Below, one piece after another: positions 4,467 to 52,649 of a stretch of 64,000 nucleotides of DNA. This DNA is from Melieria omissa (lineage: Eukaryota > Arthropoda > Insecta > Diptera > Ulidiidae). The first letter of the stretch is position 1; each line of letters starts with the position of its first letter. The position numbers and the translations under genes are program-made. The notes under the pieces are model-generated. The model was not told where the DNA came from. It ran no database searches and saw only the letters and a list, made by a program, of their open reading frames with translations. Location of the stretch: positions 100,193,905 to 100,257,904 of the forward strand of contig OZ020269.1 of NCBI GenBank assembly GCA_963971225.1, given 5' to 3'.

Positions 4467-5634
4467 TAGGGATCGCAATTTTTTGCCATTTTGCGATCCC
4501 GGGATTTTCGGGATTGAAAAGTCAAATCCCGGGATCCCGGGATTTAATCCCGGGATTCATATAACAAATTTTTTAATAAAACAATTTTCCCGAATTGCAT
4601 AAATACTTGTTTATAATATATTTATCATAAAAATGGACACATTTTAATCACATTTGGGTAGTTTCAAGATTTTTTATCTTGAATTTAATCACATTTTGTT
4701 TAACCCTTCAATTCCCATGTCCAAAATAGTGAAAAAGAAAATTTTCTTTTTAAATAAAAGAGCTTACGTTTGGAAAAAGAGATACGTTTGGATAAGACAA
4801 AAAAATACATAAAAAATGTTTAAACTACCCTCATTTTTATATTGAAAGAAACCACACAAACTCGCACTGCTTTAATTACGCGTGAAACAAATGAATAAAT
4901 TTTACAAATGACGTATCGCTAGTGTTGGTAGGAAAATTAAATAAACAAGTACTACTAATTGACTTTGCTATACAAGTGTTAGAATTTTAAAATAAAAACC
5001 TATGTGGTAGGAAAACAAATATTAAGCATCTGTCACCTACAGGTGACACTGGGAATTGAAGAGTTAACTTAAAAGTTTTTCATTTGACATTTAACTTCAG
5101 TTTCATAGCATTTTGTTTTATCCAAAAATGACACTTAAACATAACTTATTACTTTGCAACCGATGTATCATAAAGTGCATATATATGCATATTTGATAAA
5201 AAAAATAAAATAGTTAATTTGTTTGTGCTTTTAGTTTTACTTCGATTATTTCGATAAAAAAGTTAAGCGTTTTGATTAACTAAAAACTGAGATCTTAAAA
5301 ATACAAAGGCATTAAGTGTTTTGTTCTCTTATCTAGAGCGAAATTTATTTCAAATGAACCCTGCTGAAGAGAAACATCCTTCAGATTCAACACTTGTTGG
5401 TTGAATGCTTAGTAAATAATCATAAGCCTTTTGCAAAAGACGCACTCTATCCCCTCCCTTCTCCCTCAAATAAGGAATTGGGTTTTTGTGCCTTAAAATT
5501 TATTTCATTTGAACTTTGAAGCATCTTTTGCAATCCCGAAAATCCCGGGATAAAAGAATTTGAATCCCGGGATTTTCGGGACTGGAAAAAGTCCGGGATC
5601 CCGGGATCCCGGGATCCCGGGATTGCGATGCCTA
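4467..5634. mobile_element. Non-autonomous hAT-like element, 1.17 kb
   Basis: Flanked by a perfect 8-bp duplication GTCTGTAG (4459-4466 and 5635-5642). The left end reads TAGGGATCGCAAT and the right end, reversed, TAGGCATCGCAAT, 12 of 13 matching. Both ends carry clustered CCCGGGAT palindromes (about 4495-4560 and 5535-5625), typical of hAT subterminal repeats. There is no transposase frame, so it must be moved in trans. A TTAA-type MITE lies inside at 4704-5063. Confidence 0.85.
4704..5063. mobile_element. piggyBac-like MITE nested in the hAT-like element
   Basis: Flanked by TTAA at 4700-4703 and 5064-5067. The ends are inverted: left CCCTTCAATTCCCATGTCC, right (reversed) CTCTTCAATTCCCAGTGTC. 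TTAA duplication is the hallmark of piggyBac-superfamily insertion. The element is 360 bp with no coding potential. It contains a foldback GTCACCTACAGGTGAC near the right end. Confidence 0.75.
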
Positions 5635-15439: not shown

Positions 15440-17215
15440 TTATGAAATTTTGTTAAATCTCAGTATTTCAGTTCAACTTCCGACCAGTTTCAGTATTTTT
15501 ATATTTTTGTGTTATAGAATTTTTTTTTTAATTTCAGTATTTCAGTTCTTCCGATCTTTCGAACAATTTCAGTATTTTTATATTTTAGTATGATAGAATT
15601 TTTCTCAATTTCAGTATTTCAGTTGAACTTCCGAACAGTTTCAGTATTTTTATATTTTAGTATGATAGAATTTTTCTCAATTTCAGTATTTGAGTTCAAC
15701 TTCCGAACAGTTTCAGTATTTTTCAGTATTATTATATTTTCGTATTACAGAATTTTTCTCAATTTCAGTATTTCAGTTCAACTTCCAAACAGTTTCAGTA
15801 TTTTTATATTTTTGCATTATAGCATTTTTTTCAATTTCAGTATTTCAGTTCAACTTCCGAACAGTTTCAGTATTTTTACATTTTAGTATTATAGAATTTT
15901 TTTCACTTTCAGTATTTCAGTTCAACTTCCGAACAGTTTCAGTATTTTTATATTTTTGTATTATAGAATTTTTCTCAATTTCAGTATTTCAGTTTAATTT
16001 CCAAACGGTTTGAGTATTTTTATATTTTAGTATTATAGAATTTTTCTCAATTTCAGTATTTCAGTTCAACCTCCGAACAGTTTCAGTGTTTTTATATTTT
16101 TGTATTATAGAATTTTTTTCTATTTCAGTATTTCAGTTCAACTTTCAGTATTTTTATATTTTCAGTATTTTTATATTTTAGTATTATAGAATTTTTTCAA
16201 TTTCAGTATTTCAGTTCAACTTCCGAACAGTTTCAGTATTTTTATATTTTAGTATTTTAGAATGTTTCTCAATTTCAGTATTTCAGTTTAATTTCCGAAC
16301 AGTTTCAGTATTTTTATATTTTAGTATTATAGAATTTTTTTCTATTTCAGTATTTCAGTTCAACTTCCGAACAGTTTCAGTATTTTTTTATTTTTGTATT
16401 ATAGAATTTTTCTCAATTTCAGTATTTCAGTTCAACTTCCGAACAGTTTCAGTATTTTTATATTTTAGCATTATAGAATTTTTCTCAATTTCAGTTTTTC
16501 AGTCAGAACAGTCTCAGTATTTTTATATTTTAGTATTTTAGCATTTTTCTCAATTTCAGTATTTCAGTTCAACTTCCGAGCAGTTTCAGTATTTTTATTT
16601 TTTAGTATTATAGTATTTTTCTTAATTTCAGTATTTCAGGTTAATTTCCAAACGGTTTCAGTATTTTTATATTTCAATATTATAGAATTGTTCTCAACTT
16701 TAGTATTTCAGTTCAACTTCCGAACAGTTTCAGTATTTTTATATTTTAGTATTATAGAATTTTTTTTTATTTCAGTATTTCAGTTCAACTTCCGAACAGT
16801 TTCAGTATTTTTATATTTTTGTATTATAGAATTTTTCACAATTACAGTATTTCAGTTCAACTTCCGAACAGTTTCAGTATATTTATATTTTAGTATTATA
16901 GAATTTTTTTAATTTAAGTATTTCAGTTCAACTTCCGAACAGTTTCAGTATTTTTATATTTTAGTATTATAGAATTTTTCTCAATTTCAGTATTTCAGTT
17001 TAACTTCAAAACATTTGCAGTATTTCTATATTTAAGTACTTTATGCTAGAAGTTTTTTAATTTCAGTATTTTAGTTCAACTTTCAAGGAATTTCAATAGT
17101 TTTAAATTTTGGTATTTCAGTATTTTATTTATTATTATTTATTTCAATATTATAATTTCAGTATTTCAGCTCATCTTCCAAACAATTTTAGTATCTCTAA
17201 ATTTCGGTACTAGTA
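15440..17215. repeat. 72-bp minisatellite array, about 22 copies
   Basis: The unit contains AGTTCAACTTCCGAACAG, TTTCAGTATTTTTATATTT, TAGTATTATAGAATTTTTC and TCAATTTCAGTATTTC. Anchors at 15777, 15849, 15921, 15993 and 16065 are exactly 72 bp apart; outer copies drift to 75-82 bp. TTTCAG is itself repeated within the unit. Because 72 is divisible by 3, frames stay open through the array, giving spurious ORFs of a 24-residue repeat. It lies in the second intron of the minus-strand gene if that gene continues leftward. Confidence 0.92.
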
Positions 17216-46789: not shown

Positions 46790-46943
46790 ATACATCCGCT
46801 CTTTGGGGTTTTCGAAAAAAATGTTTTACTTCGCAAAATCTTCGGCCCAACGAGCTGTATAAGCTGCATAAGGACATGGATGTAGTACATCGAATTGACA
46901 TCCAGCGGCGACGGTGGCTTGGCCATCTCTGCTGTATGGACGG
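46790..46943 (+). pseudogene. LINE C-terminal tail relic, left part
   Basis: The frame reads NELYKLHKDMDVVHRIDIQR then RRWLGHLCCMDG, the ELYEL---D-V-RI--QRLRWLGH--RM block of insect LINE polyproteins. It breaks exactly at the transposon at 46944 and resumes at 49338. Confidence 0.8.
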
Positions 46944-49337
46944 TAGGCTGGAGTGAAAATGGCCAAAAAAAAATTTTTTTGGAATATCAATTAGCTAGAT
47001 ATCTCAAAATGTGCCAATACATCAATATAAAGCTGTGTAAAAATTAAAAAGAAATTAAACAATTTTTTGATCTCCCATCACAACTTTTAATTTCACAGTA
47101 TTACGCGACATTAAAGATAGTCATCTTAAAATTCAATTAAAAATCAAATACGCTTCTAATTACAATATTTAATGATGTCAAAGTTATAAACACATGGTTA
47201 CAGGGTGAAGTGACAAAAATCACGTTTCGACTCGAACGCCGGCATTTGCTGACGAGAAGCAATGCGTGCACGGATGTCGCGTCGAAGTTAAGTTTTGCAG
47301 GAACCTTGAGCCTCCGTATTTGTCCACTGGGGACTGCTGTAGCTCTGGCCTTCATCACTCGTCGTAAGCCCAGTTCACGTATATGTGGTCGATGGTCCGT
47401 CATCATGGCCAGGAGCACATTCTCCGGGTGAGCAAAGTATGCGTTACGGTGAATAACGGGGTCAACGATTCCCTTGAGTTTGGAGCTGAGGTAACGTGAC
47501 TTGACAAGCATCTGGTGAATCCAGAGAATCCGTGTGGGTCTGTCGTCCCGCCATCGAGTGACTGGAATAAATTAAGTCGCCGGATAACGCCCGATTTTTG
47601 TCCCGTGTTTACGTTTGTGCCGTCACACCCGACAACTTTAATATTATCTGTCTTCGCATTTTGCTCTTTGATACTAGCGACTAAGTACTCAGCTATGTCT
47701 TTGCTGCAGCCTGATGACGGAGACGTATGGTTGAAGTACGAAGAACCCGGCTCTGCGATGATGGTTATGTGTTCTTCCTATATGGTTTTTCTGTGGTACT
47801 TGTTGTCGACGGCGAGGACTTGTGTTAAAGTTTTATCCTTGCGGCCATCAAAAAATAGTCCATCTATGCCCTTGTGAGTGTGGTCGTCTTCATTCTGCCT
47901 CAGTTCCTTTCGAATTTTACTGCGTTTTCGACGGATTTTGCTTCGGTCGATTACTTTGGATCGGTCGTTGAGTGATACGAGACCAAGATCATGCAGAACT
48001 GTTGTTGCTAATACAGCAGCCGATCTGTCCGAAACTCCGGTCCGATCGCAAGCTATAGCGAGGGAAGGCAGAGAGATAGTAATTTTTTGGCACTCTCGAT
48101 CCTGATTTGGCTTAGTTTTGAGTGATTCTCTATCTGGGATGTACTCATCGACAGTGGGACTGTCAGACGAGTCCGTGTCGTATTCGGAACTTTCGGCAGA
48201 ATAGGGTTGACTTTTGCTCGCATCGTCATCGATCTTCTTAATCTTCATTCGTTTGAGATTTGCTTCCTCTCTTTCAGCTTTTCTCTTCAATTTTGATGTT
48301 ACCACTTGATCTGTACCACCGATTATCATCTTTCTTGGCCCTCTCTGGTCTTGAAGGAACTGCCGTTCGTTTGCCGGAATTTTGTTGTGTTTCGTACATT
48401 TGCAATTGGCCACCATATCGGAGCACTTGCATTTGCTGAGATCAAACAGAGTGTTAGCTTTGTCACGAAAGTCCGATAATCTCCGTTGGTAGTTTGGTTG
48501 ATTCCTTTTACATTTGTTGACTTTTAGCATTGTGTTGTATTTGTCGTGGAACGATCTAAGTTTTTCTATCGCTTGTGCATGCGTTACTGTTGGAAGTGAG
48601 GCCCTTTGCCATATCTCTTCGACTTCATAGCACAGTTTTTGAGATATGTCAAAAAATTATGGGTATTTACCATTGTCCGTCTTCAGATCTTGTCAAAGTT
48701 GAATATATTTCTTCATGAGATCGGTGTAGGTCGGCAGAGTATTGGTCGGCAGGTTTCGTGGAGCGCCAAATATCACGCACGAAACTTTGTCTCTTGTAAC
48801 TGTCATCTCTTTAAAAATATAAAGAAATAACTAGTAACCCTTCACTGCCCTACCTTTTTGCGCACAAGTTCAGGTACTCACCTTTTTTTTGTTTTTTTTT
48901 AATTAAATCAGATGTAACGTCACAAGTTTATTTCGAATCGGTCACTTCACAAGGAAATCGTGAACATTCAACAATCATAAACAGAATTAAACTAGCGGGG
49001 TTTGCCACATTCCAACGATTAAAACACGAATTGTAATTTGTAATATTTTATTCGCTCAAACAGGACTGCTACAATAAATAACTTAAAACCCGCAAACCTA
49101 AAGCAAAGGCTACTGAGATTTATTTTGAATCCTTAACTGAGTTGAAATTACGACTTTCACTTCTTTCGACGAAAGTGAAAAAAGTATTAAAAAAAAATTA
49201 TTTCAATTAGGTGATGGGCGATCAAGGAGTTGTTAGAAACTAATATAATTTTGCAGGATTGGTACCATGGACATTTGGCACATTTCCAATATACTAGCTT
49301 CTTAAAATTTTAAAATCAATTTTTTCACTCCACCCTA
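46944..49337 (-). mobile_element. 2.4-kb DNA transposon, 8-bp duplications, hAT-like ends
   Basis: Flanked by a perfect 8-bp duplication ATGGACGG (46936-46943 and 49338-49345). Ends read TAGGCTGGAGTGAAAA (left) and, reversed, TAGGGTGGAGTGAAAA, differing only at position 5. Its removal rejoins the LINE reading ...MDG|KASAKKVF..., an independent proof of the borders. The only gene-like content is the minus-strand pseudogene at 47137-48806. The 8-bp duplication and TAGGS ends fit hAT; P, Merlin and Zisupton types also make 8-bp duplications, so the superfamily is inferred. Confidence 0.85.
47137..48806 (-). pseudogene. Transposon-borne KCKC-motif protein, decayed
   Basis: The reading starts at ATG 48806 (MTVTRDKVSCVIFGAP) and stays in one frame through three stops (TGA, TAA, TAG) to about 47570. 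Visible parts: WQRASLPTVTHAQAIEKLRS; a cysteine cluster KCKCSDMVANCKC followed by NERQFLQDQRGPRKMIIGG; a basic and acidic linker; CDRTGVSDRSAAVLA; EEHITIIAEPGS; and KVVGCDGTNVNTG. The middle is then deleted, and the C-terminal IVDPVIHRNAYFAHPENVLL and HIRELGLRRVMKAR block follows at 47140-47510 in another frame. I recall this set of motifs as a repetitive, uncharacterised arthropod protein family. Its position as sole gene of a bounded transposon makes it the likely transposase; the Asp in GCDGT could be catalytic, which is inference. Confidence 0.72.
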
Positions 49338-49345
49338 ATGGACGG

Positions 49346-50963: not shown

Positions 50964-52649
50964 CAGTGAATCAAAAAAGTTTACGTACACTTTAATTTTC
51001 TACTTAAAACATTCAACAATTCTTTTCAATTTGTGCTCTCCAATATTGTTTTCTGCGAATGGGTTAGATAAATATTCTGTTCGTCGCTATATATGCTTTA
51101 TTTCGCGTTATTGTTGATAAGAACGATGTGAGGGAAGGCAAAGGGAAAACTGTATTGATAAAATGATCAAAAAAGTTTACGTACAACTTAGGCAATGTGC
51201 TTTGTTTTTGGCAATGTAATGGCAATTACTTTTTATTTTCTACTTTTGTTGATTGCCTACTATACTTGTAAGTAATATCAATGTGCTTTTTGAGTTCATT
51301 GTCATTTGAATTCAGTGTCATTTTGTTCAAAGTGAAAAAAGTGAGTCGTTATGGGTAGCGGTCTGGAAATTACATTGGAAATGCGGAAAATAATTTTGAA
51401 ATTATATTTGGAAAATAAATCTTTACGCGAAATTGGTAAAACAATTGGAAAATCTCATTCTAGTGTACAAACAGTAATTAATTCGTACATAAAAAACGGC
51501 GATTTACACACAAAGCCACGATCAGGCAGGCCAAAAGTGTTAACGCCACGAGAAGTACGGAATATCGTCTCTGCTGTGAAGGAAAATGCAAAAATATCTG
51601 CAGTGAAATTGACCCAAAACATATGTAATGCGACTCAGAAAAACATAAATCCTCAAACAATAAGGAACACCTTGTATAAGGCTGGGTATCATGGACGAGT
51701 TGCTCGTCGTAAACCGTTCATATCGAAAGTAAACAAGAAGAAGCGGTTAGAATTTGCTAAAAAGCACGTAGAAAAGCCAGACTCGTTTTGGGAAAATGTT
51801 GTATTCAGCGACGAATCAAAATTTAATGTATTTGGGTCGGATGGTACAGGAAAAGTGTGGAGAAAAGTCAACGAAGAGCTAAAGGAGAACAATTTAATAC
51901 CTACAGTTAAGCATGGCGGTGGAAATGTAATGATTTGGGGGAGTATGGCTGCATCTGGAGTTGGAGAATTAGTTTTTATAACTGATACTATGAACAAGCA
52001 GACATATTTAAACATTTTAAAAAATAATTTGCTTCCAAGTGTGGACAAACTGGGTCTAAGTCGCACAAGCTTCTGCTTTCAACAAGATAACGACCCCAAA
52101 CATACGTCGTTTCTTGTCCAAGAATGGCTCATATATCATTGTAAGCAACTTTATACACCTCCACAGTCACCGGATATCAACCCAATTGAACACATATGGG
52201 ACCTTTTAGAAAAACGTATCCGGAAGCGCAATATTACTTCCAAGGAAACCCTTGCAGCTGCACTAACGGCTGAGTGGGTCAAAATAACAGAAAGCGATAC
52301 CAAAGTACTAGTTAAAAGTATGCGTCGGCGCCTGGAAGCAATTATTGTAGCCAAAGGAGGGCCAACAAAATACTGAACCCATAGTCAACGTCTTTTTTCC
52401 TGTTGTAAACTTGAAGATCTCATCGATGTACGTAAACTTTTTTGATATGAATATCTTCCATTTTTTTGTTTTGGCTTTGTTTTCCACAATAATTTGTTGT
52501 AAAATGTAACTATTTTTAGTTGTACGTGTTAATAAATGTTCACTGTTTGAAATAAACCGAAGATGTTTACAATTTTTATTCATTTTGGAACAATTAACAA
52601 GGCTTTAATGCTGGAGTATTCGATGTACGTAAACTTTTTTGATTCACTG
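50964..52649 (+). mobile_element. Complete Tc1-family transposon with IR/DR ends
   Basis: Perfect 26-bp terminal inverted repeats (50964-50989 and 52624-52649, starting CAGTGAATC) flanked by TA at 50962-50963 and 52650-52651. The 19-bp core TCAAAAAAGTTTACGTACA occurs four times: outer copies at 50971-50989 and 52624-52642, inner copies at 51167-51185 and 52427-52445, about 196 bp inward on each side. This is the IR/DR layout of Tc1 elements with two transposase sites per end. With an unbroken gene it looks young and possibly active. Confidence 0.96.
51351..52376 (+). CDS. Tc1-family transposase, intact
   Basis: 341 codons without interruption, the usual length of Tc1 transposases (about 340). 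Residues 1-110 form the paired-like DNA-binding region: a first helix-turn-helix (ITLEMRKIILKLYLENKSLR), an SGRPK basic motif at 58-62 and a second helix-turn-helix. The DDE domain shows D154 (VVFSDESKF), a Gly-rich turn at 189-204 (GGGNVMIWGSMAASG), D246 (FQQDNDPKH) and E280 (SPDINPIEHIWD). Only 33 residues separate D246 and E280, one fewer than the 34 standard for this family. The ATG at 51351 directly follows a short leader after the inner repeat; the TGA is at 52374-52376 and AATAAA at 52531-52536. The enzyme would cut and paste at TA sites in the nucleus. Confidence 0.97.
   Translation: MGSGLEITLEMRKIILKLYLENKSLREIGKTIGKSHSSVQTVINSYIKNGDLHTKPRSGRPKVLTPREVRNIVSAVKENAKISAVKLTQNICNATQKNINPQTIRNTLYKAGYHGRVARRKPFISKVNKKKRLEFAKKHVEKPDSFWENVVFSDESKFNVFGSDGTGKVWRKVNEELKENNLIPTVKHGGGNVMIWGSMAASGVGELVFITDTMNKQTYLNILKNNLLPSVDKLGLSRTSFCFQQDNDPKHTSFLVQEWLIYHCKQLYTPPQSPDINPIEHIWDLLEKRIRKRNITSKETLAAALTAEWVKITESDTKVLVKSMRRRLEAIIVAKGGPTKY

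Follow-up and report, generated by a model that had tools for sequence, protein, structure and literature searches.

An internally deleted DNA transposon of Melieria omissa and the KCKC protein, its probable transposase

The window analysed here, a 64,000-nucleotide stretch of contig OZ020269.1 of the ulidiid fly Melieria omissa, contains an insertion at positions 46944–49337 that is in all likelihood a non-autonomous, deleted copy of a DNA transposon. The autonomous form (∼3.05 kb, encoding 754–762 amino acids) resides in the same genome, and the protein it encodes, referred to here as the KCKC protein, would be its RNase H-fold DDE transposase, built like that of Hermes.

The element measures 2394 bp and ends in 16-bp terminal inverted repeats (TIRs) with one mismatch between them. 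The left TIR, TAGGCTGGAGTGAAAA (46944–46959, plus strand), lies past the gene's 3′ end and is identical in 30/30 fetched copies; the right TIR, TTTTCACTCCACCCTA (TAGGGTGGAGTGAAAA on the minus strand), occupies 49322–49337 (minus strand). Outside them lies the 8-bp target-site duplication ATGGACGG, with identical copies at 46936–46943 and 49338–49345. A preliminary description of the window had claimed this duplication, these ends with their single mismatch and the exact restoration of an interrupted reading, and all were borne out. Joining the flanks after removal of the element and one duplication copy gave one continuous reading frame over the junction (...RWLGHLCCMDGKASAKKVFG...), and the host repeat runs uninterrupted through the junction, at 78–84% identity, in 38 matches elsewhere in the genome, which are empty sites (40 matches were scored out of 973 candidates, the other 2 being the window's own flanks). 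The interrupted sequence appears to be a dispersed, coding repeat resembling a long interspersed nuclear element (LINE), a label given by the look of its reading. Because the TIRs, the exact duplication and the 38 empty sites are all present, the borders are not in doubt: the element is real and its limits are proven. When the whole window was searched for 8-bp duplications flanking 16-bp inverted ends (at most one mismatch, at most 5 kb apart), two places emerged, this element and a palindromic, CCCGGGA-rich place at 4505–5542, while five mononucleotide shuffles of the window returned none.

Coding copies were sought by a translated search with the relative P0055, in which 85 of 786 candidates were scored and the best 30 of 94 matches fetched. 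Ends and duplications were tested in one genome, that of Melieria omissa (490 Mb, 164 contigs). The check around intact gene copies that the preliminary description had proposed found TIRs (TAGGSTGGAGYGAAA ends) at 30/30 of these loci and exact 8-bp duplications at 29/30, with no locus dropped from the count. In the loci L031–L050 the elements are 3044–3056 bp long, and a single open frame of 762 codons (754 amino acids from a Met at position 9) is present in 19/20, the sole exception being L042 with 664 codons; in the four loci examined, the transposase gene is the only frame of at least 300 codons. A second lineage (L053–L059) encodes 742 amino acids in elements of 3118 bp with ends near-identical to those of the 762-amino acid lineage. 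Its seven copies, spread over contigs C1, C2 and C3, are identical or a single base apart and therefore moved very recently. Over the 376 N-terminal positions compared, the two lineages share 40% identity. A third lineage (780 amino acids, with L062 among its members) lies between diverged TAGGGTGGGTCGATTCCGG ends; by a count made by eye, 8 gene matches of this lineage are flanked within 3.5 kb by two exact ends and the others by one. Since intact genes lie inside such ends in three lineages, the gene and the ends travel together in all three.

Three intact elements (L033, L034 and L035, C4:43152819–43172153) are arranged at a 7407-bp spacing. The one locus without an exact duplication of its own is L034, which has its left duplication from one neighbour and its right from the other, and the trio looks as if it arose from tandem duplication with exchange.

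The predicted model of the KCKC protein shows an RNase H fold in which an alpha-helical insertion domain divides the core, and among structural matches Hermes is the best. In the numbering of P0092, D321 lies on beta-1, D396 after beta-4 and E707 on the helix after the insertion; each is present in 95/95 relatives, and conservation together with predicted secondary structure makes them the predicted catalytic D, D and E. The structure check suggested in the preliminary description, an RNase H fold with the Asp of GCDGT in the active site, gave the fold and placed this Asp just after beta-4 of the model. C425xxH428 and R522W523, also kept in 95/95 relatives, are candidate counterparts of Hermes H268 and W319, and the order of motifs is D-D-CxxH-RW-E. 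In Kat1, according to the available text of PMC4763223, changing the counterpart of C425/H428 stops hairpin formation and leaves nicking intact. A match to a known non-transposase family, which would have told against a transposase, was looked for, including in Pfam with P0090 and 64 relatives, and none was convincing.

In the window copy the KCKC transposase gene survives as a remnant on the minus strand (47198–48806), interrupted by stops and three internal deletions. It had been placed at 47137–48806 on that strand; the start at 48806 holds, the stop codon lies at 47198–47200 instead, and the frame ending at 47137 is a different one. The KCKC...CKC segment (48396–48434, minus strand) has four Cys, invariant in 95/95 relatives, that are possibly a metal site. 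Still present on the minus strand are GLFFDGRKDK, with the first predicted catalytic Asp (D321 of P0092, on beta-1), at 47832–47861, and GCDGT, with the second (D396, after beta-4), at 47616–47630. Gene-sense alignment against the autonomous element, from which the minus-strand junction coordinates were converted, located deletion 1 at 47574–47575 (69 bp gone, including the CxxH motif), deletion 2 at 47518–47519 (362 bp gone, including the RW motif; the aligned pieces overlap by 2 bases) and deletion 3 at 47276–47279 (225 bp gone, including the predicted catalytic Glu). Apart from these 69 + 362 + 225 bp, the window element family matches L031 at 95.6–98.3% identity per aligned piece. Judged from its sequence, the gene copy in the window is dead and the element is a non-autonomous, internally deleted member of the family.

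At least 40 full-length, near-identical copies of the window element are present in the same genome. Of 255 candidates the best 40 were scored and 30 of those were fetched; copy numbers are thus lower bounds, and the fetched loci, being the best-scoring, are the youngest. Their 8-bp duplications are exact in 30/30, and the copies differ from their own consensus by a mean of 2.6 per 2394 positions (0.11%). This consensus holds the same wrecked gene, with the three deletions and two in-frame stops (48693–48695 and 48657–48659 in the window); a further stop at 47778–47780 is found in the window copy and is absent from the consensus. The family therefore amplified after the death of its gene and was moved by something else. 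Exact ends (TAGGSTGGAGYGAAAA) occur 439 times in the genome, as against 0 for the reversed control. Among the first 100 end places listed there are 46 facing TIR pairs, with 8 ends unpaired; 17 pairs are of the 2393-bp type, 18 of 1.89–2.02 kb, 4 of 3.03–3.06 kb and 7 of other lengths.

Another deleted class is marked by a set of stops (3 TGA, 1 TAG, 2 TAA) in the gene that is common to 12 of the matches listed. Five of these, in the listed part of C1, lie within TIR pairs of 1954–1993 bp (for example C1:34799290–34801243), and from its shared stops this class also appears to have amplified after its gene died. Contig C4 makes up 79 of 490 Mb (16% of the genome). Of the 40 scored 2393-bp copies, 18 lie on it, as do 12 of the 20 loci L031–L050, three of these loci forming the one tandem trio. 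This excess over a 16% share could stem from copies being retained selectively there, from C4 being a sex chromosome or from hopping over short distances. At C4:64962298–64966390, around L030, pieces of an older relative (85–93% match, one 30-base piece at 100%) flank a young 2393-bp copy on both sides, and the young copy seems to be nested in the older one.

Both deleted and coding copies show a palindromic target preference, nTGtaCAn. T is found at position 2 in 29/30 deleted copies and 28/29 coding loci, and A at position 7 in 29/30 and 27/29, the counts for coding loci omitting L034. This resembles the preference of Hermes, given as nTnnnnAn in the available text of PMC10368747, with the KCKC elements additionally asking for G3 and C6. 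Inside the TIRs of the window element a 24-nt subterminal inverted repeat (47058–47081, plus strand) is 83% complementary to its partner at 49211–49234 (plus strand); on the consensus, 0/60 shuffles equalled the score of its 15-nt core. Such repeats lie ∼80–160 bp inside the ends in both the 762- and the 742-amino acid lineage, where the best scores were reached by 0/60 shuffles per element, and may be a transposase binding site. A second TIR-like stretch, AGGGTGAAGTGACAAA, with two mismatches to the TIR, lies at 47202–47217, where the transposase gene has its final codons; in L031 the stretch is found ∼263 bp from the element end on the 3′ side of the gene. It is perhaps an internal binding site.

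From the joint travel of gene and ends and the predicted transposase fold, we infer the following steps. The transposase would combine Asp321, Asp396, a large helical insertion, CxxH, RW and Glu707 with a four-Cys N-terminal domain that replaces a recognisable BED finger. It would bind the TIRs, with the subterminal repeats as probable further binding sites, and excise the element by the route of hAT transposases, with hairpins on the flanking DNA. The excised element would then enter the target with a stagger of 8 bp, preferably at nTGTACAn, and the deleted 2393-bp copies with intact ends would be moved in trans by the autonomous transposase.

Several results weigh against reading the KCKC protein as a transposase built like Hermes. 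Pfam found no C-terminal hAT dimerisation domain (PF05699/IPR008906, Dimer_Tnp_hAT) in P0090 or 64 relatives, BLASTP against a Hermes-like hAT protein stayed at chance level, and hhalign against hAT gave a probability of 0.3 and an E of 0.24 in the wrong register, in a comparison of low power (10 hAT rows, Neff 3). The first Asp is followed by DGR where hAT has DxW. The fold, and with it the active site, is a prediction. Among 19 intact open reading frames, a comparison that omits L042, purifying selection was not seen (10 synonymous and 34 non-synonymous differences, ratio ∼1.0), as is expected for copies after insertion. The intact 780-amino acid copy at C4:20207372 has one exact end only. 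Finally, co-location of gene and ends means joint travel, which falls short of showing that the KCKC protein cuts.

Comparison with the hAT superfamily (Hermes of Musca, hobo, Ac) shows what is shared and what is not. In the available text of PMC3942097 and PMC4763223, hAT elements make 8-bp target-site duplications, and the former gives TIRs of 10–25 bp and elements of 2.5–5 kb, limits within which the KCKC elements fall (TIRs of 16 bp; 3044–3056 bp for L031–L050 and 3118 bp for the 742-amino acid lineage). The duplication with T2 and A7, the short TIRs, the ∼3-kb element and the RNase H core with a large helical insertion and the order D-D-CxxH-RW-E are common to both. In contrast, the KCKC protein has DGRKD at the first Asp where hAT has DLWTD, and Pfam detected no N-terminal BED zinc finger in P0090 or 64 relatives, CxC...CxC standing in its place. 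The family is not filed as hAT because the C-terminal domain, the BED finger and sequence-level homology were not found. The placement near hAT made in the preliminary description, as an unannotated transposase, was thus supported by fold, motifs and duplication, and unsupported by detectable sequence similarity. The KCKC elements very probably constitute an unannotated, hAT-like cut-and-paste transposase family, which sequence models such as that of Pfam fail to recognise as hAT.

It is quite possible, if short of an even chance, that this family is a known hAT subgroup named in Repbase or Dfam and merely absent from Pfam, as fold, CxxH, RW, duplication and T/A preference are all hAT-like. 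However, the Pfam hAT model finds L063, a genuine hAT of the same genome used as positive control (1.8e-25), and not P0090 or 64 relatives, and a profile–profile match was absent against the 10 hAT rows. With a fair probability, though a slightly lower one, the KCKC elements form a superfamily of their own among animal DNA transposons, a sister group of hAT with an unchanged fold and 8-bp chemistry. It would have its own four-Cys N-terminal DNA-binding domain and its own TAGGGTGG ends, would occur in insects, molluscs and a hagfish, in part through horizontal transfer, and would have gone unnoticed because its transposase is catalogued as "uncharacterized protein".

Improbable is a passenger role, in which the KCKC gene encodes a host or other protein and the elements depend for mobilisation in trans on a classical hAT resident in the genome. 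The hAT dimerisation model matches this genome at no fewer than 150 places (2543 candidates, of which 150 were scored), and the likeness to the Hermes target preference would suit such a helper. Yet it is the KCKC protein itself that has the predicted transposase fold and the invariant D, D and E, its gene is the sole long frame where this was examined, and three lineages hold it within their own variant ends, two of them having diverged to 40% identity.

Membership in the P superfamily is more improbable still. An RNase H core with an insertion may be common to both, and Foldseek places the P element transposase second (5.4e-4), before Hermes (8.2e-4). The N-terminal THAP domain that marks P had no Pfam match in P0090 or 64 relatives. 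The P superfamily also makes 8-bp duplications. Those of Dada (6–7 bp), Kolobok (TTAA) and MuDR (∼9 bp) differ from the ones seen here, and P0090 and 64 relatives had no Pfam match to any of the three. ISCth4, of the IS256 family, has a smaller protein and a lower structural Z than Hermes. The available text of PMC10045372 assigns Dada, Kolobok and MuDR to the C/DxxH group, the motif shared here between the second Asp and the Glu, and that of PMC7780238 describes ISCth4 as bacterial and copy-out.

With the KCKC protein read as a hAT-like transposase, a widespread protein family gains a function. It has at least 789 database entries, most of those listed being nameless and the named ones "hypothetical", "uncharacterized" or "unnamed"; only P0030, from a firefly, is named otherwise, its UniRef entry starting "Protein phosphatase 1 regulato". 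Among the hosts named are Diabrotica, Amyelois, Pyrocoelia, Callosobruchus, Biomphalaria, Octopus and a hagfish. A tree built from 26 proteins (391 columns) groups P0002 and P0003 of the hagfish Myxine glutinosa with the 762-amino acid lineage and its two nearest metagenome relatives (support 1.0). They are 69–70% identical to the 762-amino acid transposase over 391 positions, compared with 40% between two lineages of the same fly genome, a pattern that suggests, as a lead from the tree, horizontal transfer of KCKC elements. Before genes are counted, KCKC genes should be masked out as mobile DNA. One genome offers a complete test system, with intact 754–762-amino acid elements, recent 742-amino acid elements and at least 40 deleted copies, and the family bears on the age of the hAT-type fold and on the extent of its sequence drift.

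Other features of the window lie outside the element. The second place returned by the architecture scan, 4505–5542, has an 8-bp duplication (TCCCGGGA) and 16-bp inverted ends among AATCCCGGGAT repeats, and could be an artefact of palindromic repeats or a further element. An open frame at 16469–16912 (plus strand) consists of near-repeats of FRTVSVFLYFSI and is tandem-repeat DNA. At 51345–52376 (plus strand) an open, 343-codon Tc1-like transposase frame matches Pfam HTH_Tnp_Tc3_2 (3.6e-21) and DDE_3 (2.6e-13), and marks a second, unrelated and possibly complete DNA transposon near the window element.
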